Positions 48,625 through 64,000 of a stretch of 64,000 bases of DNA are shown here, in pieces. Position 1 is the first letter of the stretch. The number at the start of each line of letters is the position of its first letter. A program made the translations under genes and the position numbers. This DNA is from Rhodomicrobium lacus. GTDB lineage: Bacteria > Pseudomonadota > Alphaproteobacteria > Rhizobiales > Rhodomicrobiaceae. The stretch lies in contig NZ_RZNF01000003.1 of assembly GCF_003992725.1 (NCBI RefSeq), forward strand, positions 248,001 to 312,000. The letters run 5' to 3'. A model generated the notes under the pieces. That model worked only from the letters and a program-made list of their open reading frames with translations, made no database searches and was not told the DNA's origin.

Positions 48625-49130
48625 GCCTTGCCCCCATATGGGGCGCCGCTCCGCTGGCGGCGCCATTGCAAGGGGGCCAGCGAATTCTGTCGGTCTGACG
48701 TGATACAATATCCCGGGTGGCGCGCCCCGCAAAGACGCGCCGACAAGACCCGGCAGAAGTCACATGTCCGTGTGCGCTCGCGCTGAGCCGGAACGAGACT
48801 TTCTCGTCAAGGCTGCGTTCCGCCGCTGGTCCGCAGTCTTTTCCGGCGCAAGATCAAGCGCTTATTAGGCCCCCGACATCAGCTTTAGTGATTCGTGAAG
48901 TGTTAAGCGAGGATTAATTTCGCTGCACAAGATCTGGTGGACAGGTTGAAGCTCTGAACCTTTATGTTGATTTCCACACGCCGTTCACTGAATTTTGCCG
49001 AGAAGTGACAAAATCGGTTGCGATCTGTCGTGCCGCAACCGAAGATTAGATTTACCGTATCAGGATCGAATTCCCGGAGCCCTTGTTGACCCCGTAGCCG
49101 ACTGGCAACTTGCGTCGAGGAGTTTATGGA
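48625..49130. other. Intergenic region between divergent genes
   Basis: The gap of about 500 bases contains a hairpin tcggttgcg/cgcaaccga (49014-49022 and 49034-49042, 9-bp stem, 11-nt loop) about 90 bases before the next gene. AT-rich stretches near 48880-48925 and 48960-49010 could hold promoters for either side, but no clear -35/-10 pair was identified. No gene is supported. Confidence 0.45.
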
Positions 49131-49922
49131 ATGCGCCCACTTGTTCTGCTCCTTTGCAGCACGGCGGCGTTGATCGGGCTGCCGATGCTGGCGGATCAGT
49201 TCCGCGCGGGCCCTCCGAGAGCGCTCAGAACTGCGGACTTGTCGAAGTCGCCTGATAAAACGGGCGCCGCCGCACCCGCGACATTGAAGAACGCTGCGGC
49301 GGAGCAGAAAGTGAATGAGCGTTCAGAACAACGCCCGGGGACGGCTTCCGCTCCGACCGGTCCGCTTCCTGTAAAATTGAGCGATGCGGCTGCTGTATTG
49401 CCGGTGCCGAACACGCGAGCCGAACTGATCGAGGCGATCGGCAAGGAACTCTCGCGGCTTGGCCTTTATCAGGGGCCGATCTCGAAAGCTTGGACGAAGA
49501 CCATGCGCACAGCTGTGCGGCGTTTCAACGGAGCGAAGGCACCCCAGCCGACATCAGCTCTTCTTTCTGCCTTGCAAGCCGTGAAGCGCGACGAGAAATC
49601 AGTCAATGCGCCTCCATCGATCAACGCGCAAACGGTCGCGATCACGGTAGCGAAGATCGCCGACGCCCGCACGAGCGACGACATCGCGGCCGGGTCTCAT
49701 CTTCGATCCGGCGATTATCCTCCGCCTTCGGCAGGCATACGCACTCGTTCTGGTCAGGCGTCGCGTGGCCCTGCGCTCACGCAGCGCGGCCGTGCGTCAA
49801 AAAAAGAACGGCCCGCGAGTGCAGCCAGAACGAAGCGTGCATCCATTCCGCGCGCTTCCCGGCCGGTCCCTAAAACGAAAAGCATGTTTGCGAATGCCAG
49901 CTTTTCCTGGCCCGGCTTGTAG
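49131..49922 (+). CDS. Peptidoglycan-binding-like secreted or membrane-anchored protein
   Basis: A 263-residue protein with a short N-terminal hydrophobic segment (MRPLVLLLCSTAALIGLPML) that could be a signal peptide or anchor, an Ala/Lys/Pro-rich linker and one PG_binding_1-like helical domain (about 95-145): AELIEAIGKELSRLGLYQGP followed by WTKTMRTAVRRFNGAK. The C-terminal hundred residues are low-complexity, basic and Ser/Arg/Pro-rich and end with a short hydrophobic tail (NASFSWPGL). ATG 49131 follows aggag at eight bases. The function is inferred only from the domain: interaction with the cell wall. Confidence 0.6.
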   Translation: MRPLVLLLCSTAALIGLPMLADQFRAGPPRALRTADLSKSPDKTGAAAPATLKNAAAEQKVNERSEQRPGTASAPTGPLPVKLSDAAAVLPVPNTRAELIEAIGKELSRLGLYQGPISKAWTKTMRTAVRRFNGAKAPQPTSALLSALQAVKRDEKSVNAPPSINAQTVAITVAKIADARTSDDIAAGSHLRSGDYPPPSAGIRTRSGQASRGPALTQRGRASKKERPASAARTKRASIPRASRPVPKTKSMFANASFSWPGL

Positions 49923-52106: not shown

Positions 52107-52522
52107 CCTTCTCCCCTTCCGGCGCGCCGACGAAGCGCCGCGAATCCCAACCGGATGCGAGGATGGAAAGTTGCAAGCTGCGACCGATTTGGCAAGGGGC
52201 AGGCGCAAGCGACCGGGGGAAGTCGCGGACAAACGACAACCTCGGATGGCCCATTTAAGTCTTTTTGGAGCGAATGAGACTTCGCGCCCCGCGGCTTTCG
52301 GTGCCGGGTGCCGTCGCTTTTAATGTTTCTTAGCCATGTCGACCATCTTCGCGATACGTCGGATACACCGCCGTTGCACGGCGACGGTGACTTCCCCTAT
52401 CAATCAGTATAGTTGCAGAACGCTTGCAGATGATGCCGGAAGAAACGGCACGCTGTTACACAGTTCGACAATAACGCTCTGCACCACTTCCCCGTAAACA
52501 CTGCTTCGTTTCAAGAGGTGAC
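52107..52522. other. Region between parE and the phage-type module
   Basis: No integrase, repressor, tRNA or obvious attachment repeat is seen. A small inverted repeat cgccgttgcacggcg lies at 52369-52383 and the motif ttgcaga occurs twice near 52405-52425. The terminase small-subunit gene starts after aagaggtg. This gap should contain both the parE promoter and the promoter of the virion genes, but I could not pick them. Confidence 0.45.
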
Positions 52523-53008
52523 ATGGGCACCGATCTCGAAATCTTGCGGCCGCGGGGTCGCGGACGCCCCACTCTCTATAACGCGGCTTACTGCGACCGG
52601 GTGCTGGAACTCGCCGCCGAGGGCTGCTGCAAGGCCGAAATTGCCGCCGCGCTCCATGTCAGCGTGAAGACGCTCACCGCCTGGACCAAGACACATGAGG
52701 AGTTTCGCGACGCGATGACCCGTGCCAAGGAACTCGAATATGCATGGTGGCTCGCCGCCGGTCGCAAGGGCCAGTTCATGCGAACGTGGAACGCGGGCGG
52801 CTGGGCGCTTCAGATGCGAAACCGGTTCCGCAAGCGCTTCCGCGACAAGCTTCCGCCGCTGCGTGAGGAAAACCCGGAGGACAGCGTGAATGCCGAGCAA
52901 CTCCGGGACGAAATGGAGCGCAAGCTTTCTCGCATCGCTGACGCCGGAGCGGAGAGCGGACTTCCTCTCGCAACTGACGGCAAGGGAGCTGAAAAGCCTC
53001 CGATTTGA
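52523..53008 (+). CDS. Terminase small subunit-like protein
   Basis: A 161-residue protein. The N-terminus (RPRGRGRPTLYNAAYCDRVL) is basic and is followed by a helix-turn-helix (CKAEIAAALHVSVKTLTAWT) like those of small terminase subunits that recognise packaging sites. FRDAMTRAKELEYAWWLAAG and a basic amphipathic segment follow; the C-terminus is charged. The start ATG 52523 has aagaggtg upstream. It overlaps the large-subunit gene by about 119 bases in another frame, an unusually long overlap. It starts the structural transcript. Confidence 0.75.
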   Translation: MGTDLEILRPRGRGRPTLYNAAYCDRVLELAAEGCCKAEIAAALHVSVKTLTAWTKTHEEFRDAMTRAKELEYAWWLAAGRKGQFMRTWNAGGWALQMRNRFRKRFRDKLPPLREENPEDSVNAEQLRDEMERKLSRIADAGAESGLPLATDGKGAEKPPI

Positions 53009-54287
53009 TTGGGCATTCTGGGCAAGGCCCGAACAACGCGAGCCATCCGGCGACTGGCATACCTGGCTCATTCTCGCCGGGCGCGGTGCCGGCAAGACGC
53101 GCACCGGCGCCGAATGGGTGCGCGCATGCGTCTGCGGGCCGACGCCGCTCTCGGGCGGACGATATTCGCGCGTGGCACTGGTGGCCGAGACGGCAGCAGA
53201 CGCGCGCGACGTGATCGTGGAAGGGCCGAGCGGCCTTCTCCCCATCCATCCGCGCGGCTTTCGCCCGAAATTCGAGCCGTCCAAGCGTCGGCTGACCTGG
53301 CCGAACGGCGCGGTCGCGATGCTCTACAATGCGACGGAGCCGGATCAGTTGCGCGGGCCGCAGCACGACGCGGCGTGGTGCGACGAACTCGCGAAGTGGC
53401 GTTATGCACGCGAAACCTGGGATATGTTGCAGTTCGGCCTCCGGCTCGGCCATGACCCCCGTCAGATTGTGACCACGACGCCACGCCCCATTGCAATTAT
53501 TCGCGAATTTCTCGCCAAAGAGGGGCATGGCGTCGTCTTGACGCGCGGCAGCACGTATGACAATCGCGCCAATCTGGCGCAAAATTACTTTAATACGGTT
53601 GTGAAAAGTTACGAAGGTTCAAGACTTGGGAGGCAGGAAATCAATGCAGAACTCCTGGACGACGTTGCTGACGCTCTTTGGACGCGATCTATGCTGGATC
53701 GGCACCGCGTTGCTCGGGGAGCTTCGCTTCCCCGGCTTGACCGTGTTGTGGTGGGGATCGACCCCGCGGCACGCCCAAGCGGGGCGGGTGATAAGACTTC
53801 AGAAACTGGGATTGTCGTCTGTGCCCTCGGCGAAGACGGTCGCGGTTACGTCCTTGACGATCTCTCCAACCGACAAGGACCAATGGGCTGGGCTCAAAAA
53901 GCGGTCGCAGGCTTCGACAGGTACGAAGCGGACGCCGTGGTGGTCGAGATAAACCAGGGCGGCGCAATGGTGGAGACGGTGCTGCGCGCGGTGCGCGGCG
54001 GGCTGCCGATCCGGGCGGTTCGCGCGAGCCGCGGCAAGACCGTGCGAGCCGAGCCCATCGCCGCGCTTTATGCGCAGGGCCGCGTGAGCCATGTTGGCGC
54101 GTTGCCGACACTCGAAGATCAGATGGTGCAGTTCACGCCCTTCGGCATCGAGGGCGACGGCGCGGCCGACCGCGTCGATGCGCTGGTGTGGGCGCTGGCC
54201 GACCTGTTCCCGCGCATGATCCGCCCCGTTCCCGACGCCGCGACGTGGGACGATGAGCGCGGGGGCGGCGGAAGCTGGCTTACTTGA
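52890..54287 (+). CDS. Terminase large subunit / DNA-packaging protein (GTA gp2-like)
   Basis: The 465-residue packaging motor has an N-terminal ATPase with Walker A GRGAGKT at 64-70 (ILAGRGAGKTRTGAEWVRA), the segment EPDQLRGPQHDAAWCDELAKW containing the Walker B-like acidic residues, and TTTPRPI (motif III). The C-terminal RNase H-like nuclease shows VVGIDPAARPSG, VVEINQGGAMVE and DGAADRVDALVWALADLF. From memory, the N-terminal layout and the ELAKW/TTTPR blocks are very close to the RcGTA-type DNA-packaging protein. The gene begins inside the small-subunit gene (ATG 52890, ggagg upstream). vapC converges on its 3' end. Confidence 0.88.
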   Translation: MPSNSGTKWSASFLASLTPERRADFLSQLTARELKSLRFDWAFWARPEQREPSGDWHTWLILAGRGAGKTRTGAEWVRACVCGPTPLSGGRYSRVALVAETAADARDVIVEGPSGLLPIHPRGFRPKFEPSKRRLTWPNGAVAMLYNATEPDQLRGPQHDAAWCDELAKWRYARETWDMLQFGLRLGHDPRQIVTTTPRPIAIIREFLAKEGHGVVLTRGSTYDNRANLAQNYFNTVVKSYEGSRLGRQEINAELLDDVADALWTRSMLDRHRVARGASLPRLDRVVVGIDPAARPSGAGDKTSETGIVVCALGEDGRGYVLDDLSNRQGPMGWAQKAVAGFDRYEADAVVVEINQGGAMVETVLRAVRGGLPIRAVRASRGKTVRAEPIAALYAQGRVSHVGALPTLEDQMVQFTPFGIEGDGAADRVDALVWALADLFPRMIRPVPDAATWDDERGGGGSWLT

Positions 54288-54297
54288 ATACTTCACC

Positions 54298-54699
54298 TCA
54301 ACTGCGCAACCAGTTTTCGCACAGAAGCCCGTCGATGCGGGCGAACTCGCGTTCATTGGCCGTCACAAGCGTGCAACCAAGCGTGAGAGCGTGAGCGGCG
54401 ATGAAGAGATCGTTGTTTCCGATCAACCGGCCTTCCCGTTCAAGATTTGAGCGAAGCGCGGCATAGGTTGTATCGGCGGGTGCCTCGAAAGGCAGGATAT
54501 CAATCGTTGCGAGAATAAGATTTAACTGCCGGGTGAGCTGGAGCGAATTTCGTTTGGCGGCTCCGTAACGCGCTTCGCACGCGACAAAGATGCTGGTGCA
54601 GACATTCGTCTGCCCGACTTGGCGAATCCGCTTTCGGACGAGGCCCTTAGGGTTCCGAACGAGATCCGAAACGATGTTCGTATCGAGAAGATACTGCAT
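54298..54699 (-). CDS. vapC: Type II toxin VapC (PIN-domain RNase)
   Basis: A 133-residue PIN nuclease. The conserved acidic residues are visible: Asp in YLLDTNIVSD, Glu in FVACEARYGA and the Asp pair in NNDLFIAAHAL with a further Asn/Glu in TANEREFARIDGL. VapC toxins typically cleave tRNA or rRNA and are neutralised by VapB. It overlaps the end of vapB by one base (TGATG) and is transcribed against the virion genes, converging with the large terminase. The location between terminase and portal is unusual. Confidence 0.9.
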   Translation of the reverse strand: MQYLLDTNIVSDLVRNPKGLVRKRIRQVGQTNVCTSIFVACEARYGAAKRNSLQLTRQLNLILATIDILPFEAPADTTYAALRSNLEREGRLIGNNDLFIAAHALTLGCTLVTANEREFARIDGLLCENWLRS

Positions 54700-54926
54700 C
54701 AGAAATCGACTGGTTCCGGAGGCAGATCCTCAATCTCGGGAAACTCATCCTCGATCGGCTCAAGCGTATCGAGGAGTTCCAGAAGAGAGAGTTTCCGCAT
54801 CGGCTCGATGATGAGCTTGTCGCCTTCCTTGCGCATGATCGCCTCGTCTCCCGGCAACTCGAATTCGCGCGGGATGCGGACGGCCTGATTGCGCCCGTTT
54901 TTGAAAAGTTTGACCTGACGCTCCAT
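54699..54926 (-). CDS. vapB: Antitoxin VapB (AbrB/SpoVT-type)
   Basis: A 75-residue antitoxin with an N-terminal swapped-hairpin AbrB domain (VKLFKNGRNQAVRIPREFEL, then AIMRKEGDKLIIEPM) that binds DNA, and an acidic C-terminal tail (PIEDEFPEIEDLPPEPVDF) that inhibits VapC. gagggcag precedes ATG 54926. It starts divergently to the portal gene and is followed directly by vapC, the normal antitoxin-first order. It would autoregulate the pair. Confidence 0.9.
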   Translation of the reverse strand: MERQVKLFKNGRNQAVRIPREFELPGDEAIMRKEGDKLIIEPMRKLSLLELLDTLEPIEDEFPEIEDLPPEPVDF

Positions 54927-54942
54927 TCACACTGCCCTCAGA

Positions 54943-54961
54943 CATATGCCAGCAGCATATG
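54943..54961. promoter_or_regulatory. Candidate VapB operator
   Basis: catatgc (54943-54949) and gcatatg (54955-54961) form a perfect inverted repeat with a 5-bp centre, 17 bases upstream of the vapB start. Size, symmetry and position fit a VapBC autoregulatory operator. It lies about 50 bases before the portal start codon and might also influence portal-gene transcription. Confidence 0.6.
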
Positions 54962-55013
54962 CCAAACGTCATTGAACTGCAAGCACGCGCGTCACCGCCC
55001 CAAAGAGGTTCCC

Positions 55014-56921
55014 TTGCCCCACATCGACATCGTTCGGGAGGCGCGGGAGCGCCTCGCAGCCGCATGGCTGCAGGATCGCGAGAACCGCGAAGATGCGTTC
55101 ACCGATCTGAAGTTCCTCGCGGGCGACCAGTGGCCCGCCGCCGTGCGCCAGCAGCGCGAGGCGCAGAGCCGCCCGTGTCTCACCATCAACCGCCTGCCGC
55201 AATTCGTGCATCAAGTCGCCAACAGCGTGCGCATGAACCCGCCGCAGATCAAGGCCATCCCGGCGGGCGGCGCGGCGACGGAAGCGCTGGCGGAGATCTT
55301 TTCCGGCCTGTTCCGGCACATCCAGTATCGCTCGAACGCGACGCACGTCTTCGCGCATGCGGTCTATTACGCGGTCGCGTGTGGCATCGGCCATTTCCGC
55401 CTCGCCACCGACTATGTGGACGACAACGCCTTCGAGCAGGAAATCCTGATCAAGCGCATCCAGCATCCGCTTTCGGTGTTCTGGGACCCGGCTGCCATCG
55501 AGCCGAGCCGCGCCGATGCCGATTATTGCCTCGTGTCGGAGATGATCGGCCGCAAAGAATTCGAAGCGCGCTTCCCCCATGCGGCCCCCGCCGATTTCGA
55601 CACGCCCGCCGATGGCAGCGCGGAAAGCGGCCTGTTCTGGGCAAGCCGCGATGCCGTGCGCGTCTGCGAATACTGGGTTAAGCGGCCCGTCGAGCGCGCC
55701 ATCGCAAGGCTCGCGCGCGGCGAGACAGTGGACATCACCGAGGTCGACCCGGCGGAGCTGCCGCGGCTTGGGATCGTCGCCACGCGCAAGGTTCGCTCGC
55801 ACAAGGTGGAACGCTGGCTGCTTTCGGGCAGCGAGGTACTCGAAGGACCGAACGCCTGGGCCGGGCGCACCATCCCGATTTTTCCGGTGATCGGCGCGGA
55901 AACTGCGCTCGAGACGAAAACCGTCCGCAGCGGCCTCATACGCGCCGCGCGCGACCCGCAACAGCTCTATAATTTCTGGCGTTCGGCGGCGGCGGAAGCC
56001 ATCGCGCTCGCGCCGCGTTCGCCGTTCCTCGCAACGCCAGCCATGATCGCAAAATTCAAGGGCCAGTGGGACACGCAGAACAGTGTCGCACGCCCCTATC
56101 TTCTCTACGAGCCGGACCCCGACGCACCAGGCAGCCGCCCGATGCGCGAGCCGCCGCCGGACGTACCGACCGCGCTGACGCAGGAAAGTGCCATCGCCGC
56201 CGACGAGATGAAGGCGACGACGGGCATCTACGACGCAGCGCTCTGGGCGCGGTCGAACGAGATTTCCGGCGTGGCCATTCGGGCGCGTGAAAATCAGGGC
56301 GGCAACGCGGCGCTTCACTATCAGGATAACCTGATGGCGACGCTGCATCATCTCGGCAAGGCGCTGATTGACCTCGTGCCGAAGATTTACGACAGCGAGC
56401 GGACGCTTCGCATCATGCGAGAGGACGACAGCCAGGAGCCCGTGCGCATCAATGCCGCCGTTATGGGCGTTGACGGCAAGCCCATGCTGCTGAACGACCT
56501 TTCGCAAGGCGTCTACGACGTGCGCGTGAAGATAGGACCGGCCTACGCCACGCGACGCTCGGAGGCTGCCGACGCGATGCTTCAGTTCATCCGCGCCGTG
56601 CCGCAGGCGGCGGGGATCGCGGGCGACCTCGTCGCGAAGACCATGGACTGGCCGGGCGCCGACGAAATCGCGGCGCGGCTGAAACGCACGCCCCCGGAGG
56701 TTACAGGAGAGGCTGCATCGCCCGAGGTTCGGGCCGCGCAGGCACGCCAACAGGCGCTCGCCGAAGCCGAACTCGCCCGCGCCCAGAGCCTAGCCGCCAA
56801 GTCCGGCGCGGATGCCGCCAAGGCCGAGGCCGTCGCTCAACAGGCTGCACTCGACGCCGCGAAGGCCGAGGCAGAACTCAAGGCGAGCGGCAAGGCTCCC
56901 GCAGGACCCGCCGCCCTCTAG
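55014..56921 (+). CDS. P22-type portal protein
   Basis: A 635-residue portal, the dodecameric ring through which DNA enters the head. The N-terminus (IDIVREARERLAAAWLQDRE, FLAGDQWPAAVRQQREAQSR, LTINRLPQFVHQVANSVR) and the core (FWDPAAIEPSRADADYCLVS, FLATPAMIAKFKGQWDT) are those of the P22-portal family. The C-terminus is a long Ala/Glu/Lys helix (about 565-635), like the barrel domain. The best start is TTG 55014: agagg at 55004-55008 lies five bases upstream, and no ATG is available; the upstream in-frame extension crosses the vapB operator. Confidence 0.87.
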   Translation: MPHIDIVREARERLAAAWLQDRENREDAFTDLKFLAGDQWPAAVRQQREAQSRPCLTINRLPQFVHQVANSVRMNPPQIKAIPAGGAATEALAEIFSGLFRHIQYRSNATHVFAHAVYYAVACGIGHFRLATDYVDDNAFEQEILIKRIQHPLSVFWDPAAIEPSRADADYCLVSEMIGRKEFEARFPHAAPADFDTPADGSAESGLFWASRDAVRVCEYWVKRPVERAIARLARGETVDITEVDPAELPRLGIVATRKVRSHKVERWLLSGSEVLEGPNAWAGRTIPIFPVIGAETALETKTVRSGLIRAARDPQQLYNFWRSAAAEAIALAPRSPFLATPAMIAKFKGQWDTQNSVARPYLLYEPDPDAPGSRPMREPPPDVPTALTQESAIAADEMKATTGIYDAALWARSNEISGVAIRARENQGGNAALHYQDNLMATLHHLGKALIDLVPKIYDSERTLRIMREDDSQEPVRINAAVMGVDGKPMLLNDLSQGVYDVRVKIGPAYATRRSEAADAMLQFIRAVPQAAGIAGDLVAKTMDWPGADEIAARLKRTPPEVTGEAASPEVRAAQARQQALAEAELARAQSLAAKSGADAAKAEAVAQQAALDAAKAEAELKASGKAPAGPAAL

Positions 56922-56948
56922 TTTCTTCCATCAGCAAAAGGACCGCGC

Positions 56949-57674
56949 ATGACCATCCCCGGCGATACCCCGTCGGCGGACGAAGCCGCCTTGGCTTTTT
57001 CCGCCCTTCACGACGATGCGAGCGAGGCCGCAGACAGAGGCGGCGCCGCACGGCGCAAAGGCGCGCCCGGAAAGGCACGCGTCGACCGCCTCATTCGCGA
57101 CAAGGAGGTCGCCGACGCCCTCGCTCAAACGAGCGCGGCTCAGGCGGAGGCGCTTCGCCAGAGATTGCAGAACGCGGGGCGCCCGCAGGATTACCGCACC
57201 CCCGAAGACTACACCCGCGCCGTGGCCGAGCAGGCCGTGCGCGAGGTCGGCGCGGAGATCCTCGCCCGGCAGGCCGAGCAGGCTCGCGAGATCGCGGCTC
57301 GCGCCGCTTACGACGCCTGGGGCGAAGCGACCTCCGCATTCCGCGAAAAGGTCCCGGACTTCGACGAGGTGGCCCACAATCCGAACCTCGCCGTCACGCC
57401 GATCATGGCGGAGGCGATCCGCGGAATGCCGCGAGGCGCGGAGATCGCCTATTACCTCGGCAAGAATCCCGGCGAGGCCGCGCGCATCGCGGCGCTTCCG
57501 CCCGTCAGTCAGGTGATGGCAATCGCGCGGCTCGAAACCCGGCTCGACACTGCGCAAGCCGCAGTCAGCCGCGCGCCCGAGCCGATCGGCGCGCTCACCG
57601 GGCGCGGCGGCAACGCGGGCAAGCCGCTCGACCAGATGACGTTCGACGAATACCGCCGCGCGCGCGGCTACTGA
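56949..57674 (+). CDS. Capsid scaffolding-like protein
   Basis: The 241-residue product lies between portal and coat, the standard position of a scaffold. It is acidic at the start, then Ala/Arg/Glu-rich and mostly helical (VDRLIRDKEVADALAQTSAA, AVREVGAEILARQAEQAREI), with a C-terminal structured segment (FREKVPDFDEVAHNPNLAVT, MAEAIRGMPRGAEIAYYLGK) and a short basic end (DEYRRARGY). Scaffolds of P22 bind coat protein by a basic C-terminal helix-turn-helix. Sequence similarity is not obvious; the call rests on position and composition. aagga precedes ATG 56949. Confidence 0.7.
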   Translation: MTIPGDTPSADEAALAFSALHDDASEAADRGGAARRKGAPGKARVDRLIRDKEVADALAQTSAAQAEALRQRLQNAGRPQDYRTPEDYTRAVAEQAVREVGAEILARQAEQAREIAARAAYDAWGEATSAFREKVPDFDEVAHNPNLAVTPIMAEAIRGMPRGAEIAYYLGKNPGEAARIAALPPVSQVMAIARLETRLDTAQAAVSRAPEPIGALTGRGGNAGKPLDQMTFDEYRRARGY

Positions 57675-57764
57675 CGAATCCAACGGCAATCGGCCCTTTT
57701 TAGAGCCCGCTTCACGGCGCGGAACGGACAGGCGCGCCTCCCTCAATCCAAGGAACCTCCCCGC

Positions 57765-59006
57765 ATGGCCTCTACCCTTCTCACGCCGAGCCTCATCGCC
57801 AAAGAAAGCTTGATGCAGCTCGACAATAACCTCGTCGCCGCGAAAATGGTGTATCGCGCCTACGAGGCCGAATTCGGCGAAACGAAGATCGGCGACACGC
57901 TCACCATCCGCAAGCCGGTGAAATACGCCGTCCGCTCCGGCTCCGTCGCGCAGATGCAGGACGCGACCGAAGGCAAGGTGCAGATCAAGGTCGACACGCA
58001 GCGCGGCGTCGACCTGCGCTTTCCGACGAAAGACCTGACGCTGTCCATCGACCGTTTCGCCGAGCGCTATCTGAAGCATCCGATGATCGCGCTGGCAAAT
58101 CAGGTCGATCTCGACGTGCTGTCTCTCTACAAGGCGGTGTGGAACTGGGTCGGCACGCCGGGGAAAACGCTCGACGGCTACAGGTCGTTCATCGCCGCGC
58201 CGCAGCGCCTCGATGAAATGGCGGTGCCGACCCCGCGCACGGCGTGCCTCTCGCCCGCCGATTTCTACGGCATGGCGTCGAGCTTCACGAGCCTGCATGT
58301 GCCGGACGTGGCGAAGACCGCGCTTGAGAAGTCGCGCCTTCCGCTCGTCGGCAATACCGACTGTTACGCCTCGCAGAATGTCGTCAGCTACACGGTCGGC
58401 AATCACGCGGGCACGCCGGTGATCTCGGCCATCGCCTCGGCAAACGGCGTCACGAATACGGGCGTCACGACGTGGCTCGCCGCCAAGGACTCGGACGAGA
58501 CGGCGATCCTCGTGGACGGGCTGACGCCGGGCGCCACGCTCAATGCGGGCGACGTCTTCACCCTCGCGGGCGTTTACGCCGTGAACCCTGTCACGAAGCA
58601 GGTTCTTCCCTATCTCCAGCAGTTCGTCGTGAAGGCGCCCGTTACGGCAACCGGCAACGCCGACGCGCTTACGATTTCGCCCGCGATCATCGTATCCGGC
58701 CAGTATCAGACCGTGAGCGCGGCGCCTGCAGCCAACGCGGCGCTGACATTCGCGGGAACGGCGGGCGCCAATTATCCGCAGAACCTCGTCTTTCATGAGA
58801 ACGCCTTCGCGCTCTGCATGGTGCCGATGGAACTGCCCGAGGGGGCCAGCAAGAAGGCGCGGCAGAGCTACAACGGGCTCTCGATCCGCGTCATCTGCGA
58901 CTACGACATCGTCAACGACATCAACATGTGGCGGCTCGACATCCTTTACGGCGTGAAGCCGATCTACCCCGACCTCGCCACGCGCCTTTCCGGGTCGGCG
59001 GCGTAA
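57765..59006 (+). CDS. P22-type major coat protein
   Basis: A 413-residue HK97-fold coat of the P22 branch. The N-terminal MASTLLTPSLIAKESLMQLD and VYRAYEAEFGETKIGDTLTI are characteristic, as are DLTLSIDRFAERYLKHPMIA and VFHENAFALCMVPMELPEGA. The central portion (about 220-330) contains the extra I-domain-like beta region (LVDGLTPGATLNAGDVFTLA). The end (GLSIRVICDYDIVNDINMWR, LDILYGVKPIYPDLATRLSG) is typical. The start ATG 57765 follows aagga. It confirms the podovirus character of the head. Confidence 0.9.
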   Translation: MASTLLTPSLIAKESLMQLDNNLVAAKMVYRAYEAEFGETKIGDTLTIRKPVKYAVRSGSVAQMQDATEGKVQIKVDTQRGVDLRFPTKDLTLSIDRFAERYLKHPMIALANQVDLDVLSLYKAVWNWVGTPGKTLDGYRSFIAAPQRLDEMAVPTPRTACLSPADFYGMASSFTSLHVPDVAKTALEKSRLPLVGNTDCYASQNVVSYTVGNHAGTPVISAIASANGVTNTGVTTWLAAKDSDETAILVDGLTPGATLNAGDVFTLAGVYAVNPVTKQVLPYLQQFVVKAPVTATGNADALTISPAIIVSGQYQTVSAAPAANAALTFAGTAGANYPQNLVFHENAFALCMVPMELPEGASKKARQSYNGLSIRVICDYDIVNDINMWRLDILYGVKPIYPDLATRLSGSAA

Positions 59007-59079
59007 GCCGCGAGCGTCAGCAACCGGGCACAGCCCCGGCAGACCGCGCACCACTTGTCCAGAACCGAGGAGCTATTCC

Positions 59080-59334
59080 ATGCCCGTTCGCCATCCCTCC
59101 GACGGCAATCCTGACGGCACCGTGCTCGGCCAGAGCCCGAGCGACCTCATCTCGTTTTACAACGCCACGCCCACGCCGCAGCGCTCTGGCTCCGCACAGG
59201 CCGCGGTGCCCGCGACCGCGCCGACCAACGCCGCACCTTACGGCTTCAGCGAGGCGCAGGCACAAGCGATCGTCACCCTTCTGAACGAGATCCGCGCGAC
59301 GCTCGTCGGGCTGGGCCTGATGAAGGGCTCGTGA
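59080..59334 (+). CDS. Short phage structural protein downstream of coat
   Basis: An 84-residue protein with the pattern DGTVLGQSPSDLISFYNATP and a C-terminal helix (YGFSEAQAQAIVTLLNEIRA followed by TLVGLGLMKGS). I recall proteins of this pattern following coat genes in many phages; they are often annotated as hypothetical or head fibre/decoration proteins. The C-terminal helix could trimerise. The role is unknown. It begins 73 bases after coat and overlaps the next gene by one base. Confidence 0.65.
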   Translation: MPVRHPSDGNPDGTVLGQSPSDLISFYNATPTPQRSGSAQAAVPATAPTNAAPYGFSEAQAQAIVTLLNEIRATLVGLGLMKGS

Positions 59335-59627
59335 TGCACGCCGACACACGCCTCTGGATGTATCGGAAGGGCGAAGCTCGCCTTTTCGGTGCCGCGGGCG
59401 AGGTGCCGCGCGAGGAAGGCTGGCAGCGATTTCCCGTCCCCGACGTCGGGGAAGCTGAAGACGTGTCGCCCGAGGGGGGCGCGCCCGATGCCGAAGCCCT
59501 CGACACCATGTCCCGCCGACGCATGCTTGAACTTGCAGGCGATTGCGGTCTGAAGGTCGAGCCGGGCTGGACGAAAGCCCGTCTCAGGCAAGCGCTCGGC
59601 GAGGTTCTCCATGACTACGGCGCGTGA
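59334..59627 (+). CDS. Phage hypothetical protein with SAP/HeH-like helical end
   Basis: A 97-residue protein that starts at ATG 59334 in a TGATG overlap with the preceding gene and runs 17 bases into the next gene. The N-terminal half (MHADTRLWMYRKGEARLFGA) is a small beta-rich segment followed by an acidic linker. The C-terminal part (TMSRRRMLELAGDCGLKVEP, then WTKARLRQALGEVL) resembles a SAP or Rho-N-type helix-extended-loop-helix. Such small proteins occur between coat and neck genes in phages; the function is unknown. Confidence 0.55.
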   Translation: MHADTRLWMYRKGEARLFGAAGEVPREEGWQRFPVPDVGEAEDVSPEGGAPDAEALDTMSRRRMLELAGDCGLKVEPGWTKARLRQALGEVLHDYGA

Positions 59628-60000
59628 CGTCATCACCGGCGCGTATCGGCGGCTGGGTCTCCTGCCGCTCGGCGCGAACCTCGATCCCGCGCGCGCCGTC
59701 GCCGGCCTGCAAGCCTATGGTGGCATGCTCGGCGCATGGGCCGCCGATGGCATCGTCGCGGGCAACGTGACGCCGGAGACCGCCGACCTCGACGACGATT
59801 TCCCGCTTCCGCCTTGTTTCGTGGAAGGGGCGAAAGCGCTGCTCGCGGTCGAATTGGCGAGCGAAAGCGGCATCGAGGCGCAACCCTCGATCCAGAGCCG
59901 TGCGAAGAAGGCTTACGCGGCAATGCTCGCCGCCTTCGTAGCCGCGCCTGAGGCATCGCAAGACCGTGCGCTCACCGCGCTCCCGAGCCAGCGCCGCTAG
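59611..60000 (+). CDS. P22 gp4-like head-completion/tail accessory factor
   Basis: A 129-residue helical protein. The N-terminus TTARDVITGAYRRLGLLPLG with LQAYGGMLGAWAADGIVAGN is the recognizable gp4 pattern: an initial helix with RxLG, then a long helix with MLxxW. PLPPCFVEGAKALLAVELAS follows. gp4 binds the portal and closes the DNA channel in P22. It overlaps the preceding gene by 17 bases. Short length and helical character fit the family. Confidence 0.75.
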   Translation: MTTARDVITGAYRRLGLLPLGANLDPARAVAGLQAYGGMLGAWAADGIVAGNVTPETADLDDDFPLPPCFVEGAKALLAVELASESGIEAQPSIQSRAKKAYAAMLAAFVAAPEASQDRALTALPSQRR

Positions 60001-60194
60001 ACTAGAGGATCCGACTGGTGTCGCTCCGATTGGTGCGCGACGCGGAGCGTTTCAGCCGGACGCACTCAGCAAAGGGGGCGGACCTGCCCCGTCCCTCGAT
60101 ACCGGCTCCGGCGCTCCAGAAGCGCGACCTCCCCTCGCTCGAAACGCTCTCAACCCTCCACCGCAGAAGCGCTCAACGCTCCCGGAGTAATGTC

Positions 60195-61619
60195 ATGGTT
60201 TCCGTCGAATTCGGTCACACATCGAACAAAGGCGCAAGCGGCGTCGTGTCGAACCAGCGCCTCCTCAACGGCTACGCCGAGGCAATGGGGCAAGCGGCAA
60301 AGGCTTCGCTTCCGGTCTATGCGGTGCCAGGCACAAGGCGCTTCGACCGGGGTGAGACCGGCCTGGATGGCCCCTGCCGTGGGATGCTTTACGTCTACGG
60401 CAAGGGGCTTTACGTGGTCGCGGGCACGCGTGCGGCGCTATTCGATGATGCAGGCAACGCCGCAGTGGTCTCGGGCGAGATCGCGGGCAGTTCCATGGTC
60501 GTCATGGCCGCGAACCAGCAGACGAACCCGCAGATCGGCATCGTCGCCGACGGAGTTTATTACGTGCTCGACACCGCGACGAACGCCATCGCCGCCCCCG
60601 ATATCACGACGCTTCCCGCTCCGAACAGCGTGACCTTCCTGGACGGCTATCTCGTCTTCTCCATCGCCGACGGGCGCATCTTTCACACAGCGCTGAACGA
60701 CGCGGTGACAGTCAATGCCCTGTCATTCGCGACCACCACGAGCCGCTCGGATGGACTTCGCCGAATCGTCACGCACCGGGGCGCCCTCATCGCGCTCGGC
60801 GAGGCGAGCCTGGAAATCTGGGAAAACGCAGGCACCACGCCGTTCGCCTTCGCGCCGATCCGCGCCGATATCGACATCGGCTGCATTGCGGAGCACACGG
60901 CCGCAAGCGTCGGGGACTCGCTCCTCTTCGTGGACCATAACGGCGTCGTCCGCCAACTCACCGGGTCGGAGCCGCAGCGCATCTCCACACACGCCATCGA
61001 GCGCGCCATCGCCGCGCTGTCGTGGGACGAGCGGCGCGCGCTTTATGCCGTCTACACGCATTTCAACGGCCATGACTTCTATGCCGTCACGAGCCCCTAC
61101 TGGACGTTCGAATTCGACCTGGCCACCGGGCTTTGGCACGAGCGGGCGAGCGGCGAACTCGATCACTGGACGGCGCGTGGGCATGCCTCTTTCAACGGCA
61201 AGGTGGTGATCGGTTCGGGCGTCGATGCGAGCCTTCACGTGCTCGACGATGCGTCTTATACGGCAAGCGGCCAACCTTATCTCTTTCTTGCGCAGTCGGC
61301 ACCGCTGCATGCTTTCCCGAACGGCCTCATCGTCGACCAGCTCGACGTCGACATCATTCCGGGGGTCGGCATGACGAGCAACGACGAGGACACCGCCGAC
61401 CCTAAGCTGATGCTCGACTGGTCGGACGATGGCGGCGTCACCTGGACCGGCGGGCGTGTCGCCTCCCTCGGCCGCGTGGGCGAGCTATTCACGGTAGCGA
61501 GTTTCCATCAGCTCGGCGCGGCGCCCCGCGGCGGTCGAACGTTTCGCCTCGCATCGTCGTCGCCGGTCATGCGCGGCATCCTCTCGGCGAAAGCGCGCGT
61601 GCGCGCCATCGCACCGTGA
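60195..61619 (+). CDS. P22 gp10-like packaged-DNA stabilisation protein
   Basis: A 474-residue beta-rich protein that in P22 forms the hexameric tail hub. The N-terminal region (SNQRLLNGYAEAMGQAAKAS, YAVPGTRRFDRGETGLDGPC, RGMLYVYGKGLYVVAG) and the middle (FLDGYLVFSIADGRIFHTAL, FATTTSRSDGLRRIVTHRGA, LGEASLEIWENAG) match the phage stabilisation family. The start ATG 60195 follows ggag; GTG 60018 would add 59 residues of poor composition. About 190 bases with no other gene separate it from gp4. Confidence 0.85.
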   Translation: MVSVEFGHTSNKGASGVVSNQRLLNGYAEAMGQAAKASLPVYAVPGTRRFDRGETGLDGPCRGMLYVYGKGLYVVAGTRAALFDDAGNAAVVSGEIAGSSMVVMAANQQTNPQIGIVADGVYYVLDTATNAIAAPDITTLPAPNSVTFLDGYLVFSIADGRIFHTALNDAVTVNALSFATTTSRSDGLRRIVTHRGALIALGEASLEIWENAGTTPFAFAPIRADIDIGCIAEHTAASVGDSLLFVDHNGVVRQLTGSEPQRISTHAIERAIAALSWDERRALYAVYTHFNGHDFYAVTSPYWTFEFDLATGLWHERASGELDHWTARGHASFNGKVVIGSGVDASLHVLDDASYTASGQPYLFLAQSAPLHAFPNGLIVDQLDVDIIPGVGMTSNDEDTADPKLMLDWSDDGGVTWTGGRVASLGRVGELFTVASFHQLGAAPRGGRTFRLASSSPVMRGILSAKARVRAIAP

Positions 61620-61629
61620 GGACGGCATC

Positions 61630-63774
61630 ATGACCGGAAAGGACAACCTATTCAGTCCGTTCGGCTTTTCGGTCGATCGCAAGGGCCGCGTCGACAACAA
61701 CACGCGCGCCTTTCTCTCGAAGTTCAAGGGACGCACCGGCCCAGCGATCGCCGATCTGGAAAGCGACGCTTCGTGGACCGGGATCGCGGCCACGGCAAAT
61801 GCGCTCATCCGCGAATTTGTGGCGCAAGGCTGGACTGAAAAAGGCTTCGATTCGAACGAAACGGCCTATGCGAGCGCCGTCCGCGCCGTGACCATGATCC
61901 CCGCCGCAACCGAGTTCGCCTACGCGCCATATGAAGTTTTGCGCGACCAGGTCACGGCGGGCACTGAATATGTGGCGACGGAAAACGCCTTCAGCATTTA
62001 TGAGCGCGATATGTGGCTCCTCGCCCATGCCGCCGCAAACAGGGCCGGGCGCATCGGCGGCGCGGCGTGCGACTGGGCCACTTCGCTCAATGTGATGCAA
62101 AGCCAGTTGCCGAATGTCGGCCTCGTGAACCTTTTCGTTTCGTGGTACGGCACCGATCTGCGCGCTGGCGAATGCATACTCGTGCCCGGCGTCACGCGCG
62201 CGAGCTTCGAGACCATGCCAGATCGCTGGAGTTGCGCGGGCATGTCGCGCGGCGAGGCGCATGTCGTCTCGCAGGTGGACGGCAACGCGGCTTTCGGCGG
62301 CACGCCGGACGACACATCGCTTGTCGCCTGCATCAAGGATCTGAAGGCGCGCAAGCTCGAAGTCGCCTTCACGCCGTTCATTCTGATGGACATCCCGGCG
62401 GGCAACGCGCTGCCGGACCCGCTTCGGGGCGGGGCGGGTCAACCGGTCTATCCATGGCGCGGACGCATCACGAAGGCTTATGCCACCGCGGACAGGTCGG
62501 CCGAGGTCGAGGCGGAAGTCGCAGCATTCGTCAGGCAGTATCGCGCCTTCGTCTTGCATTATGCGCAGCTCTGCGCGGATGCGGGCGGCGTGGATATCTT
62601 TCTGCTCGGCACGGAGCTTCGCGGCCTGACGTGGCTTCGCGGCGCGGAAGGGGGCTATCCTTTCGTGACGGCGCTGAAGCAACTGGCGGCGGACGTAAAG
62701 GCGGTTCTGCCGAGGGCCAGGCTCTCCTACGCAGCGGACTGGTCCGAATGGTTCGGCCATCAGCCGCCTGACGGCACGGGCGATGCTATCTTTCATCTCG
62801 ATCCGCTGTGGACGGACCCGAACATAGACGCCATCGCCTTCGACAATTACTGGCCGCTGTCGGACTGGCGAGACGGCACGCCGAACATGGACCGCGCGCT
62901 GAAGGAAGACGGCACGCTGACGGCCAACACCGATTACGACTATCTGATGGGCAACATCAGAGGCGGCGAAGGCTACGACTGGTACTACGCCAGCACCGCC
63001 GACCGCGACGCCCAGGTGCGTTCGCCTATCACCGACGGCGGCTACCACAAGCCCTGGATCTATCGCTACAAGGACATATGGGGCTGGTGGGCGAACCCGC
63101 ATTACGACCGCCTCGGCGGCATCGAGGCTGCGGAACCGACGGCCTGGGTGCCGCGCTCCAAGCCATTCTGGTTCACCGAACTCGGCTGCCCCTCCATCGA
63201 CAAGGGATCGAACCAGCCGAACGTGTTCCACGATCCGAAATCGGCGGAAAGCGCCCTGCCTCATCACTCGACCGGCCAGCCGGACAACCTCATCCAGCGC
63301 CGCTACCTCCATTCGATGCTGCGCTTCTTCGACGAGACCGATGCCGCGTTCGAGGAGACGAACAACCCGCAAAGCACCGTCTATGACGGCCGCATGGTCG
63401 ATGTGTCACGCATCATGATCTACACATGGGACGCGCGGCCCTATCCGTACTTTCCGCTGTTCTGGTGGGTCTGGAGCGACGCCGCGAACTGGGCTTACGG
63501 CCACTGGATCGCGGGCAAGCTTTCAACCTACGCCTTGCCGACGGAGCTTGACAGCATGGCCAAGACGACGACCTACGCGCCCCGCCACCCCTATATCGTG
63601 GACCCGGCGACGGGCAAGCTCGACAAGCAGTATGCGGATTTCTTCCAGAGCATCGAGTTCGTGAAGGGGAGCGCGATCGCAAACGTGCCGCTCGAACCGA
63701 CCGTCTCGGAGGCAGCCGCCGCGATCAATTCGTTACTCGCGGTGCTCCGCGCGCAGAACAGGCTCGCCACATGA
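61630..63774 (+). CDS. GTA-type TIM-barrel glycoside hydrolase-like tail protein
   Basis: A 714-residue protein. Residues about 95-600 match the TIM-barrel domain found in the large host-recognition protein of the Rhodobacter GTA (the Rcc01698/orfg15 type): VDIFLLGTELRGLTWLRGAE, LSYAADWSEWFGHQPPDGTG, FHLDPLWTDPNIDAIAFDNY, GGEGYDWYYAS, KPFWFTELGCPSIDKGSNQP. Glu329 (GTEL) and Glu517 (FTEL) are candidate acid/base and nucleophile. In GTAs the barrel is the N-terminal part of a ~1,300-residue tail-tip protein; here it is the whole protein, with a short N-terminal extension and a helical end (INSLLAVLRAQNRLA). It may degrade a cell-wall or surface glycan. It begins 10 bases after the gp10-like gene. 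Confidence 0.82.
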   Translation: MTGKDNLFSPFGFSVDRKGRVDNNTRAFLSKFKGRTGPAIADLESDASWTGIAATANALIREFVAQGWTEKGFDSNETAYASAVRAVTMIPAATEFAYAPYEVLRDQVTAGTEYVATENAFSIYERDMWLLAHAAANRAGRIGGAACDWATSLNVMQSQLPNVGLVNLFVSWYGTDLRAGECILVPGVTRASFETMPDRWSCAGMSRGEAHVVSQVDGNAAFGGTPDDTSLVACIKDLKARKLEVAFTPFILMDIPAGNALPDPLRGGAGQPVYPWRGRITKAYATADRSAEVEAEVAAFVRQYRAFVLHYAQLCADAGGVDIFLLGTELRGLTWLRGAEGGYPFVTALKQLAADVKAVLPRARLSYAADWSEWFGHQPPDGTGDAIFHLDPLWTDPNIDAIAFDNYWPLSDWRDGTPNMDRALKEDGTLTANTDYDYLMGNIRGGEGYDWYYASTADRDAQVRSPITDGGYHKPWIYRYKDIWGWWANPHYDRLGGIEAAEPTAWVPRSKPFWFTELGCPSIDKGSNQPNVFHDPKSAESALPHHSTGQPDNLIQRRYLHSMLRFFDETDAAFEETNNPQSTVYDGRMVDVSRIMIYTWDARPYPYFPLFWWVWSDAANWAYGHWIAGKLSTYALPTELDSMAKTTTYAPRHPYIVDPATGKLDKQYADFFQSIEFVKGSAIANVPLEPTVSEAAAAINSLLAVLRAQNRLAT

Positions 63775-64000
63775 GCGGCGTCGTTCGACAGGCGAGCGAG
63801 GCCGATGCCGCCCGTTTCGTGGAACTGGCCTTGCGGTTTTATGCCGAGGAAGGTGCACGGCGCGCCGATCCACGCGCGCTCGCCCGTTTCGCCTTCGCGC
63901 AGATTTTCGAGCGAAACCGGGTGCTGCTGGCGGCGAAAGAGCCTGCGGTGGCCGTCCTCGCGGGCATGATCGCGCCGCACTACCTCACGGGCGAGCCGAC
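63771..64000 (+). CDS. GNAT-like acetyltransferase, 5' part
   Basis: ATG 63771 overlaps the TGA of the TIM-barrel gene (ATGA). The 76 visible residues (VVRQASEADAARFVELALRF, then AEEGARRADPRALARFAFAQ, LLAAKEPAVAVLAGMIAPHY) look like the N-terminal third of a GNAT: an initial strand, the xxxDxxxxxEL helix and the next strands. Small GNAT genes are found among tail genes of podoviruses. The acetyl-CoA motif would lie beyond the right edge, so the call is tentative. Confidence 0.5.
   Translation, partial: MSGVVRQASEADAARFVELALRFYAEEGARRADPRALARFAFAQIFERNRVLLAAKEPAVAVLAGMIAPHYLTGEP

Follow-up and report, generated by a model that had tools for sequence, protein, structure and literature searches.

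A short-tailed, P22-like candidate GTA at two chromosomal loci of Rhodomicrobium

Gene content of the head locus

The window, a stretch of 64,000 nucleotides from the genome of Rhodomicrobium lacus (G000:C3:248001-312000), carries at its right end a virion gene module that runs over the window's edge; positions beyond 64000 are given as window equivalents, and L002 designates the sequence from window position 60001 onward. Profile searches found at 52523-64803 a full P22-type set of head, packaging and neck genes, together with a 714-aa GTA TIM-barrel protein:

52387..52433, + strand: conserved promoter-like element upstream of TerS, 47 bp (GTGACTTCCCCTATCAATCAGTATAGT...GCAGATGA)
52523..53008, + strand: small terminase TerS, HTH kept (phrog_309, 4e-15; Sf6_terminase/HTH_23; compared with phage TerS)
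52890..54287, + strand: large terminase TerL (Pfam Terminase_6N/6C; in the tree with P22-portal podoviruses, 97/96)
54298..54926, - strand: VapC/VapB-type toxin-antitoxin, carried as cargo in the gap after TerL, outside the particle (PIN and MazE_antitoxin domains)
54972..56921, + strand: P22-type portal, alternative start 55014 possible (PF16510, P22_portal, 2.7e-182)
56949..57674, + strand: head scaffolding protein, P22-type (phrog_8865, 5e-32; Phage-scaffold, 2e-4, under the cut-off)
57765..59006, + strand: P22-type coat protein (PF11651, P22_CoatProtein, 3e-49; P22 gene 5 protein in PDB, 1.9e-10)
59080..59334, + strand: small virion-operon protein, 84 aa (in all genus members; dN/dS 0.09-0.15)
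59331..59627, + strand: small virion-operon protein, 98 aa (conserved yet faster-evolving; dN/dS 0.20-0.33)
59611..60000, + strand: head-tail adaptor Ad3, gp4-type (phrog_637, 1e-12)
60018..61619, + strand: head closure Hc3 / tail hub protein, gp10-type, alternative start 60195 possible (phrog_578, 1e-86; needle head proteins in PDB 7eeq)
61630..63774, + strand: GTA TIM-barrel protein, 714 aa, corresponding to the central part of RcGTA gp15/megatron, both ends being new (PF13547, GTA_TIM, 2e-140; 6tba_8A; tree)
63771 to window-equivalent 64214, + strand: GNAT acetyltransferase (phage-profile matches at the operon's right end include phrog_1249 and phrog_598)
ending at window-equivalent 64803: DNA-ejection protein, phrog_598-type, last gene of the operon (position conserved)

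The start of TerS lies ~290 bp from parE, in divergent orientation, and the order is TerS, TerL, VapBC (on the opposite strand), portal, scaffold, coat, two small proteins, gp4-type, gp10-type, TIM barrel, GNAT, ejection protein. These matches agree with a preliminary description of the window, which had seen the portal, coat, gp4 and gp10 proteins as being of the P22 kind and the 714-residue TIM-barrel protein as GTA-like; the latter has the GTA_TIM match at 2e-140 and stands in the tree with RcGTA gp15. The module had also been said to adjoin parE with no integrase or repressor at its left, and reading of the ORFs confirmed this. In fact, no integrase, repressor or replication genes were seen among the flanking ORFs on either side of the head locus, and no tail-tube or tape-measure genes were found in the module by profile search.

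The 47-bp promoter-like element is identical at 43-47 of its 47 positions in four species, and its core is also present in the divergent members L036, L040, L041 and G004; it matched once in the window and not once in 100 shuffles.

A second locus with tailspike and lysis genes

The ejection gene is followed by ~11 kb of host genes (cytochrome b561, enoyl-CoA hydratase, patatin, glk, otsA, GH15, otsB and GNAT). Behind them, at about window-equivalent 76033-79936, lies a second locus, after which come HU, ssb and gyrA:

L002:15964-18345: tailspike with a pectate-lyase-like beta helix (spike profile match)
after the tailspike: GH108 plus PG-binding endolysin (endolysin and GH108 matches)
after the endolysin: small holin-like ORF (assigned solely from its position and what look like membrane helices)

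We compared this tailspike with those at L022:15086-16738, L023:2948-5065 and L150:1695-5396. The proteins (550-1233 aa) have ~110 N-terminal residues in common, the remainder being wholly different between species; this suggests that receptor-binding parts have been exchanged. A regulatory element common to both loci was not found in front of the second locus, and no CtrA sites were found upstream of TerS or the spike gene.

The preliminary description had named an ordinary mosaic prophage, with its lysogeny genes to the right, as the simpler alternative, and had pointed to an integrase and a lysis cassette on the right flank as its signs. A lysis cassette is indeed present there; however, it comes without an integrase, lies beyond host genes and is itself conserved in place, which makes it one part of a two-locus GTA layout rather than the end of a prophage. 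Among the ORFs of the next 40 kb, host genes and the spike/lysis locus alone lie between the operon and gyrA, and a prophage with lysogeny genes at the right was rejected. With no integrase seen at the right and both loci conserved in place wherever the context is readable, the ordinary prophage is disfavoured.

Conservation within the genus and selection

The genus was represented by five genomes: that of the window, Rhodomicrobium sp. Az07 (G005), R. udaipurense JA643 (G006), the divergent MAG fen_921 (G004) and a genome of 4,014,469 bases in one contig (G007), which we take to be R. vannielii ATCC 17100. All five have the portal, which three sister genera lack; both loci are genus-wide and absent from those three genera. 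Among 297 genomes of the order, the remaining portal matches were 32-50% identical and lay in loci having no TIM barrel; we considered the other P22-portal loci of the order (in G179, G176, G161, G030, G184 and others; 30-51% identity) and rejected them as ordinary phage relatives.

The same two loci in the same order were seen in G005, G006 and G007, where the head locus is beside parE and the spike/lysis locus is flanked by the GNAT gene and HU; in G005 a PiT phosphate transporter sits between parE and the head locus. In G004, the gp10, TIM, GNAT, ejection, ECH, glk, spike and lysozyme genes are on one contig, with parE elsewhere. Gene order is kept in divergent metagenomic copies as well (portal 70-79% identical), and some neighbours recur there: the PiT transporter on the left in L041, as in G005, and a cyt219 homologue on the right in L038.

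Pairwise comparison of module genes gave dN/dS values mostly of 0.05-0.25, with dS of 0.2-0.6, similar to that of host genes. Trees built from concatenated host proteins and from concatenated module proteins have identical topology and similar branch lengths; one inner branch is weak in both (61/63 and 64/49). The comparison of relatives proposed in the preliminary description came out mostly in favour of domestication: the position beside parE is conserved wherever the context is readable, selection is purifying and the phylogeny is vertical. As the position is conserved, dS is host-like, dN/dS is low and the two trees agree, the module is, judged from its sequences, a virus-derived particle system that is passed on vertically and maintained by selection, rather than an ordinary prophage.

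One could think of a mobile phage or satellite that has its integration and replication genes elsewhere or makes use of a helper phage, given that TerS keeps its HTH and that IMG/VR files the cluster as viral contigs. We regard this as very improbable: the chromosomal neighbourhood is the same genus-wide, the module co-diversifies with its host and is absent from sister genera, and host genes separate the two loci. The IMG/VR contigs close to the module, with portals 70-98% identical, are pieces of 7-16 kb, two of which run into host genes.

Lesions and intact copies

Lesions were found in three of the four isolates. In the window's own genome a 14-bp tandem duplication frame-shifts the ejection gene near its 5' end; G007 has an out-of-frame scaffold/coat deletion and G006 a portal frameshift. 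The metagenomic copy L041 has an insertion in TerL. On the other hand, the module genes checked in G005 and L034 were intact, as were the conserved parts in several metagenomic copies. These lesions could reflect errors of assembly, decay that set in recently or the loss of a lytic trait that is costly to keep, the last being of the type discussed for GTA cheaters (PMC10883770).

Lesions in four examined loci could also be expected of an ancient defective P22-like prophage that integrated once, descended vertically and decayed slowly; its mosaicism would be ordinary phage recombination, and the TIM barrel could have joined the phage before integration. Such a history appears quite unlikely in view of dN/dS values that stay mostly at 0.05-0.25 over some 0.3-1.2 synonymous changes per site. 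Furthermore, 12-14 genes are kept in order genus-wide, yet every lysogeny and replication gene is gone; the lesions differ from each other and look recent, and G005, L034 and other metagenomic members have intact copies.

Origins of TerL and the TIM barrel

TerL is 50-54% identical to RcGTA-type TerLs and 50-52% identical to the GTA-type TerL of sister genera. In the TerL tree it was placed among TerLs of P22-portal podoviruses (97/96), which rules it out as a sign of GTA origin despite the 50-54% identity; the earlier view of the large terminase as GTA-like did not hold. We also considered the GH108 endolysin as a second RcGTA heirloom and rejected it, phage endolysins being closer (47.6% vs 37-39%). 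By these comparisons, the TIM barrel is the sole part of the module that comes from a GTA.

Each Rhodomicrobium genome has exactly one GTA_TIM match, the module's 714-aa protein, and a single TerL. The gp15-type TIM proteins of the sister genera have 1186-1366 aa, and in L145, the one case read in detail, the gene belongs to an RcGTA-like tail cluster. A GTA_TIM match is present in 91 of 121 genomes sampled from the order. All three sister genera have DUF6456, the domain of GafA (PMC9638019, PMC9765227), which none of the five Rhodomicrobium genomes has. Judging by gene content, this photosynthetic genus has apparently lost the DNA-transfer particle that most related bacteria possess, and seems to have kept the virus-derived module in its stead throughout its existence.

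In a 53-row mixture-model tree, the module's TIM barrel clusters with RcGTA gp15 of the three sister genera (99/96), and the same grouping has an SH-aLRT value of 97 in a 127-row tree. In a reduced 30-row tree it obtained 72/32 only, and AU tests of alternatives were borderline (p 0.047 and 0.051). Because of the weak 30-row tree and the borderline tests, we grade the descent of the module's TIM barrel with sister-genus RcGTA gp15 as likely, not certain. Compared with RcGTA gp15 in PDB (6tba_8A, 1304 aa), the module's protein matches the central portion (best over residues 447-764), and its predicted fold resembles the R4C megatron protein and GH113 mannanases. No phage match was found for either the new N-terminal or the new C-terminal end, both being predicted at low confidence.

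Many IMG/VR contigs of 12-16 kb labelled as viral (L244-L320) encode a GTA TIM barrel with a GH108 lysozyme downstream of it; they look like RcGTA-type clusters filed as viruses.

A candidate short-tailed GTA and its possible mechanism

We consider it probable that the two chromosomal loci of Rhodomicrobium encode a domesticated, vertically inherited GTA-type particle system with short-tailed, P22-like architecture. This reading builds on the gene content, the two-locus layout, genus-wide conservation, purifying selection, co-diversification, the lack of an RcGTA TIM/TerL or DUF6456 in the genus and the chimeric TIM/TerL ancestry. The idea of an undescribed short-tailed GTA-like particle, raised in the preliminary description, is therefore supported by the conserved locus, purifying selection and vertical phylogeny, as a candidate; we keep it at this rank because TerS retains its HTH, several isolates carry lesions and the packaging of host DNA is predicted from the genes.

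As to origin, we lean towards GTA replacement. The ancestor's long-tailed RcGTA-type GTA, along with GafA, would have been displaced by a newly domesticated P22-type podovirus module that acquired the host-recognition TIM barrel of the old RcGTA, giving a chimeric short-tailed alphaproteobacterial GTA, possibly of larger capacity.

Homology to P22-type phages and GTAs suggests how particle formation, packaging of host DNA, delivery and regulation may proceed. In a fraction of cells, a dedicated promoter ahead of TerS would activate the head operon. A P22-like procapsid would form from scaffold, coat and portal; TerS/TerL would load it with host DNA by a headful mechanism, after which the homologues of gp4 and gp10 would close the head. 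The short tail would consist of the TIM-barrel protein, with its glycoside-hydrolase-like fold from the old RcGTA baseplate protein, and the species-specific tailspike. Release could occur via the holin-like protein and the GH108 endolysin of the second locus; kin would then be bound through the tailspike and the DNA ejected with the phrog_598-type ejection protein.

Comparison with known systems

A published definition of GTAs (PMC9662315) lists six features: structural proteins derived from caudoviricetes; packaging of mostly random host DNA; full endogenization, often at multiple loci; a genome that is not, or cannot be, packaged in full owing to head size; mostly vertical inheritance with co-diversification; delivery of the DNA to other cells. 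From its sequences, the module has three of the six, namely caudoviricete-derived structural proteins, endogenization at two loci and vertical inheritance with co-diversification. We class it as a GTA-like candidate, not as a member of Rhodogtaviriformidae. A P22-type coat usually forms a head holding ~40 kb; a head of this size could be large enough for both loci (~27 kb span), which counts against the GTA reading.

The TerS of RcGTA is without HTH, the N-terminal DNA-binding domain, and its loss has been proposed as a GTA hallmark (PMC6854486). Compared with that GTA-type small terminase, the module's TerS keeps the HTH region, as present in related phage TerS, and so does not carry this hallmark. 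Since the HTH is kept, packaging by the module could be site-directed.

The nearest analogue in layout is FpGTA of Faecalibacterium, reported in 2026 as the first GTA with podovirus-like morphology (PMC12946183); we liken the two by their descriptions. Both have two separate operons, one with TerS, TerL, portal, scaffold and capsid genes, the other with receptor-binding and lysis genes; both are podovirus-like, conserved in one genus, not found in related genera and devoid of replication genes. FpGTA differs in its Gram-positive host, and its particles were shown to package ~8.5 kb of host DNA. The module, for its part, has P22-type parts, a built-in RcGTA TIM barrel and a TerS with HTH, whereas the TerS of FpGTA has no obvious one.

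A PBSX-like or tailocin-like particle, one that packages host DNA and serves mainly in killing competitors through its tailspike and TIM-barrel hydrolase rather than in gene transfer, seems unlikely to us. In its favour, the tailspikes are species-specific with unrelated C-terminal parts, and long-term conservation and lysis genes fit it equally well; the authors of the FpGTA study left the same possibility open for FpGTA (PMC12946183). However, the gene for a DNA-ejection protein is conserved across the genus, and the TIM barrel derives from a gene-transfer system. Also, the known headed killers of the PBSX-like kind use long tails.

With RcGTA and the other type I GTAs (Rhodogtaviriformidae) the candidate GTA shares a multi-locus layout, vertical inheritance, the absence of lysogeny and replication genes and a gp15-type TIM barrel; the RcGTA-type clusters of sister genera also have a downstream GH108 lysozyme. 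The RcGTA particle combines an HK97 capsid with a long tail (g1-g15 cluster), whereas the module has a P22-type head, short-tail genes and a podoviral TerL; its TIM protein has 714 instead of ~1300 aa, and its genome lacks DUF6456/GafA.

P22-like temperate podoviruses and IMG/VR phages (L044 and below) have portal, scaffold, coat, gp4, gp10 and TerL in order, with TerL 58-64% identical in the nearest; those examined have no TIM barrel at this place. Unlike such phages, the module is without integrase, repressor or replication genes (flanking ORFs read) and is fixed in one genus. The cyanophage Pam1, a podovirus, has an endolysin 47.6% identical to the module's, and PDB 7eeq, the needle-head match of the gp10-type protein, is presumably the Pam1 structure; Pam1, however, is a virus with a 36-kb genome and no relation to a host-fixed locus. 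We found nothing relevant on a GTA or prophage of Rhodomicrobium in the open-access literature, and no description of the IMG/VR pieces of the module as a GTA.

Few GTA lineages have been described, and the module, if our reading is true, is a domestication independent of FpGTA. Since sister genera still carry the old GTA, its loss and replacement would then be directly open to study. It would suggest that selection favours possession of a GTA as such, not descent from one particular virus, with the TIM barrel being the part worth keeping. The retention of the TerS HTH bears on whether GTA behaviour needs loss of TerS specificity. R. vannielii and R. udaipurense are in culture and the module genes checked in strain Az07 are intact, so particle content and gene transfer are open to experiment.

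Cargo slot and flanking ORFs

The stretch separating TerL from the portal gene acts like a slot for cargo: it holds VapBC-type genes in several members, nothing in G007, and in R. udaipurense (L025:11628-13366) a pair of GmrSD_N (PADLOC NsnA / PD-T4-2_A) and HEPN_MAE_28990 genes. The dS of VapBC is 1.4-2.3, vs ~0.4 for the module; VapBC was thus exchanged separately from the module.

Past the ejection protein, divergent members have one extra small ORF (L038:11306-11644; L042:10439-10723), which was not found in the window's genome. Right of gyrA (L003:14764-16602 and L003:17868-20000) there is a relaxase-like ORF, together with fragments resembling transposases and a large ORF of DEAD/helicase-like type; this may be a mobile or defence island of its own. 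Beside parE, at window 49110-49922, there is an ORF with a weak PG_binding_2 match that evolves far faster than its neighbours (50-57% identity and dN/dS 0.32-0.40 between species).
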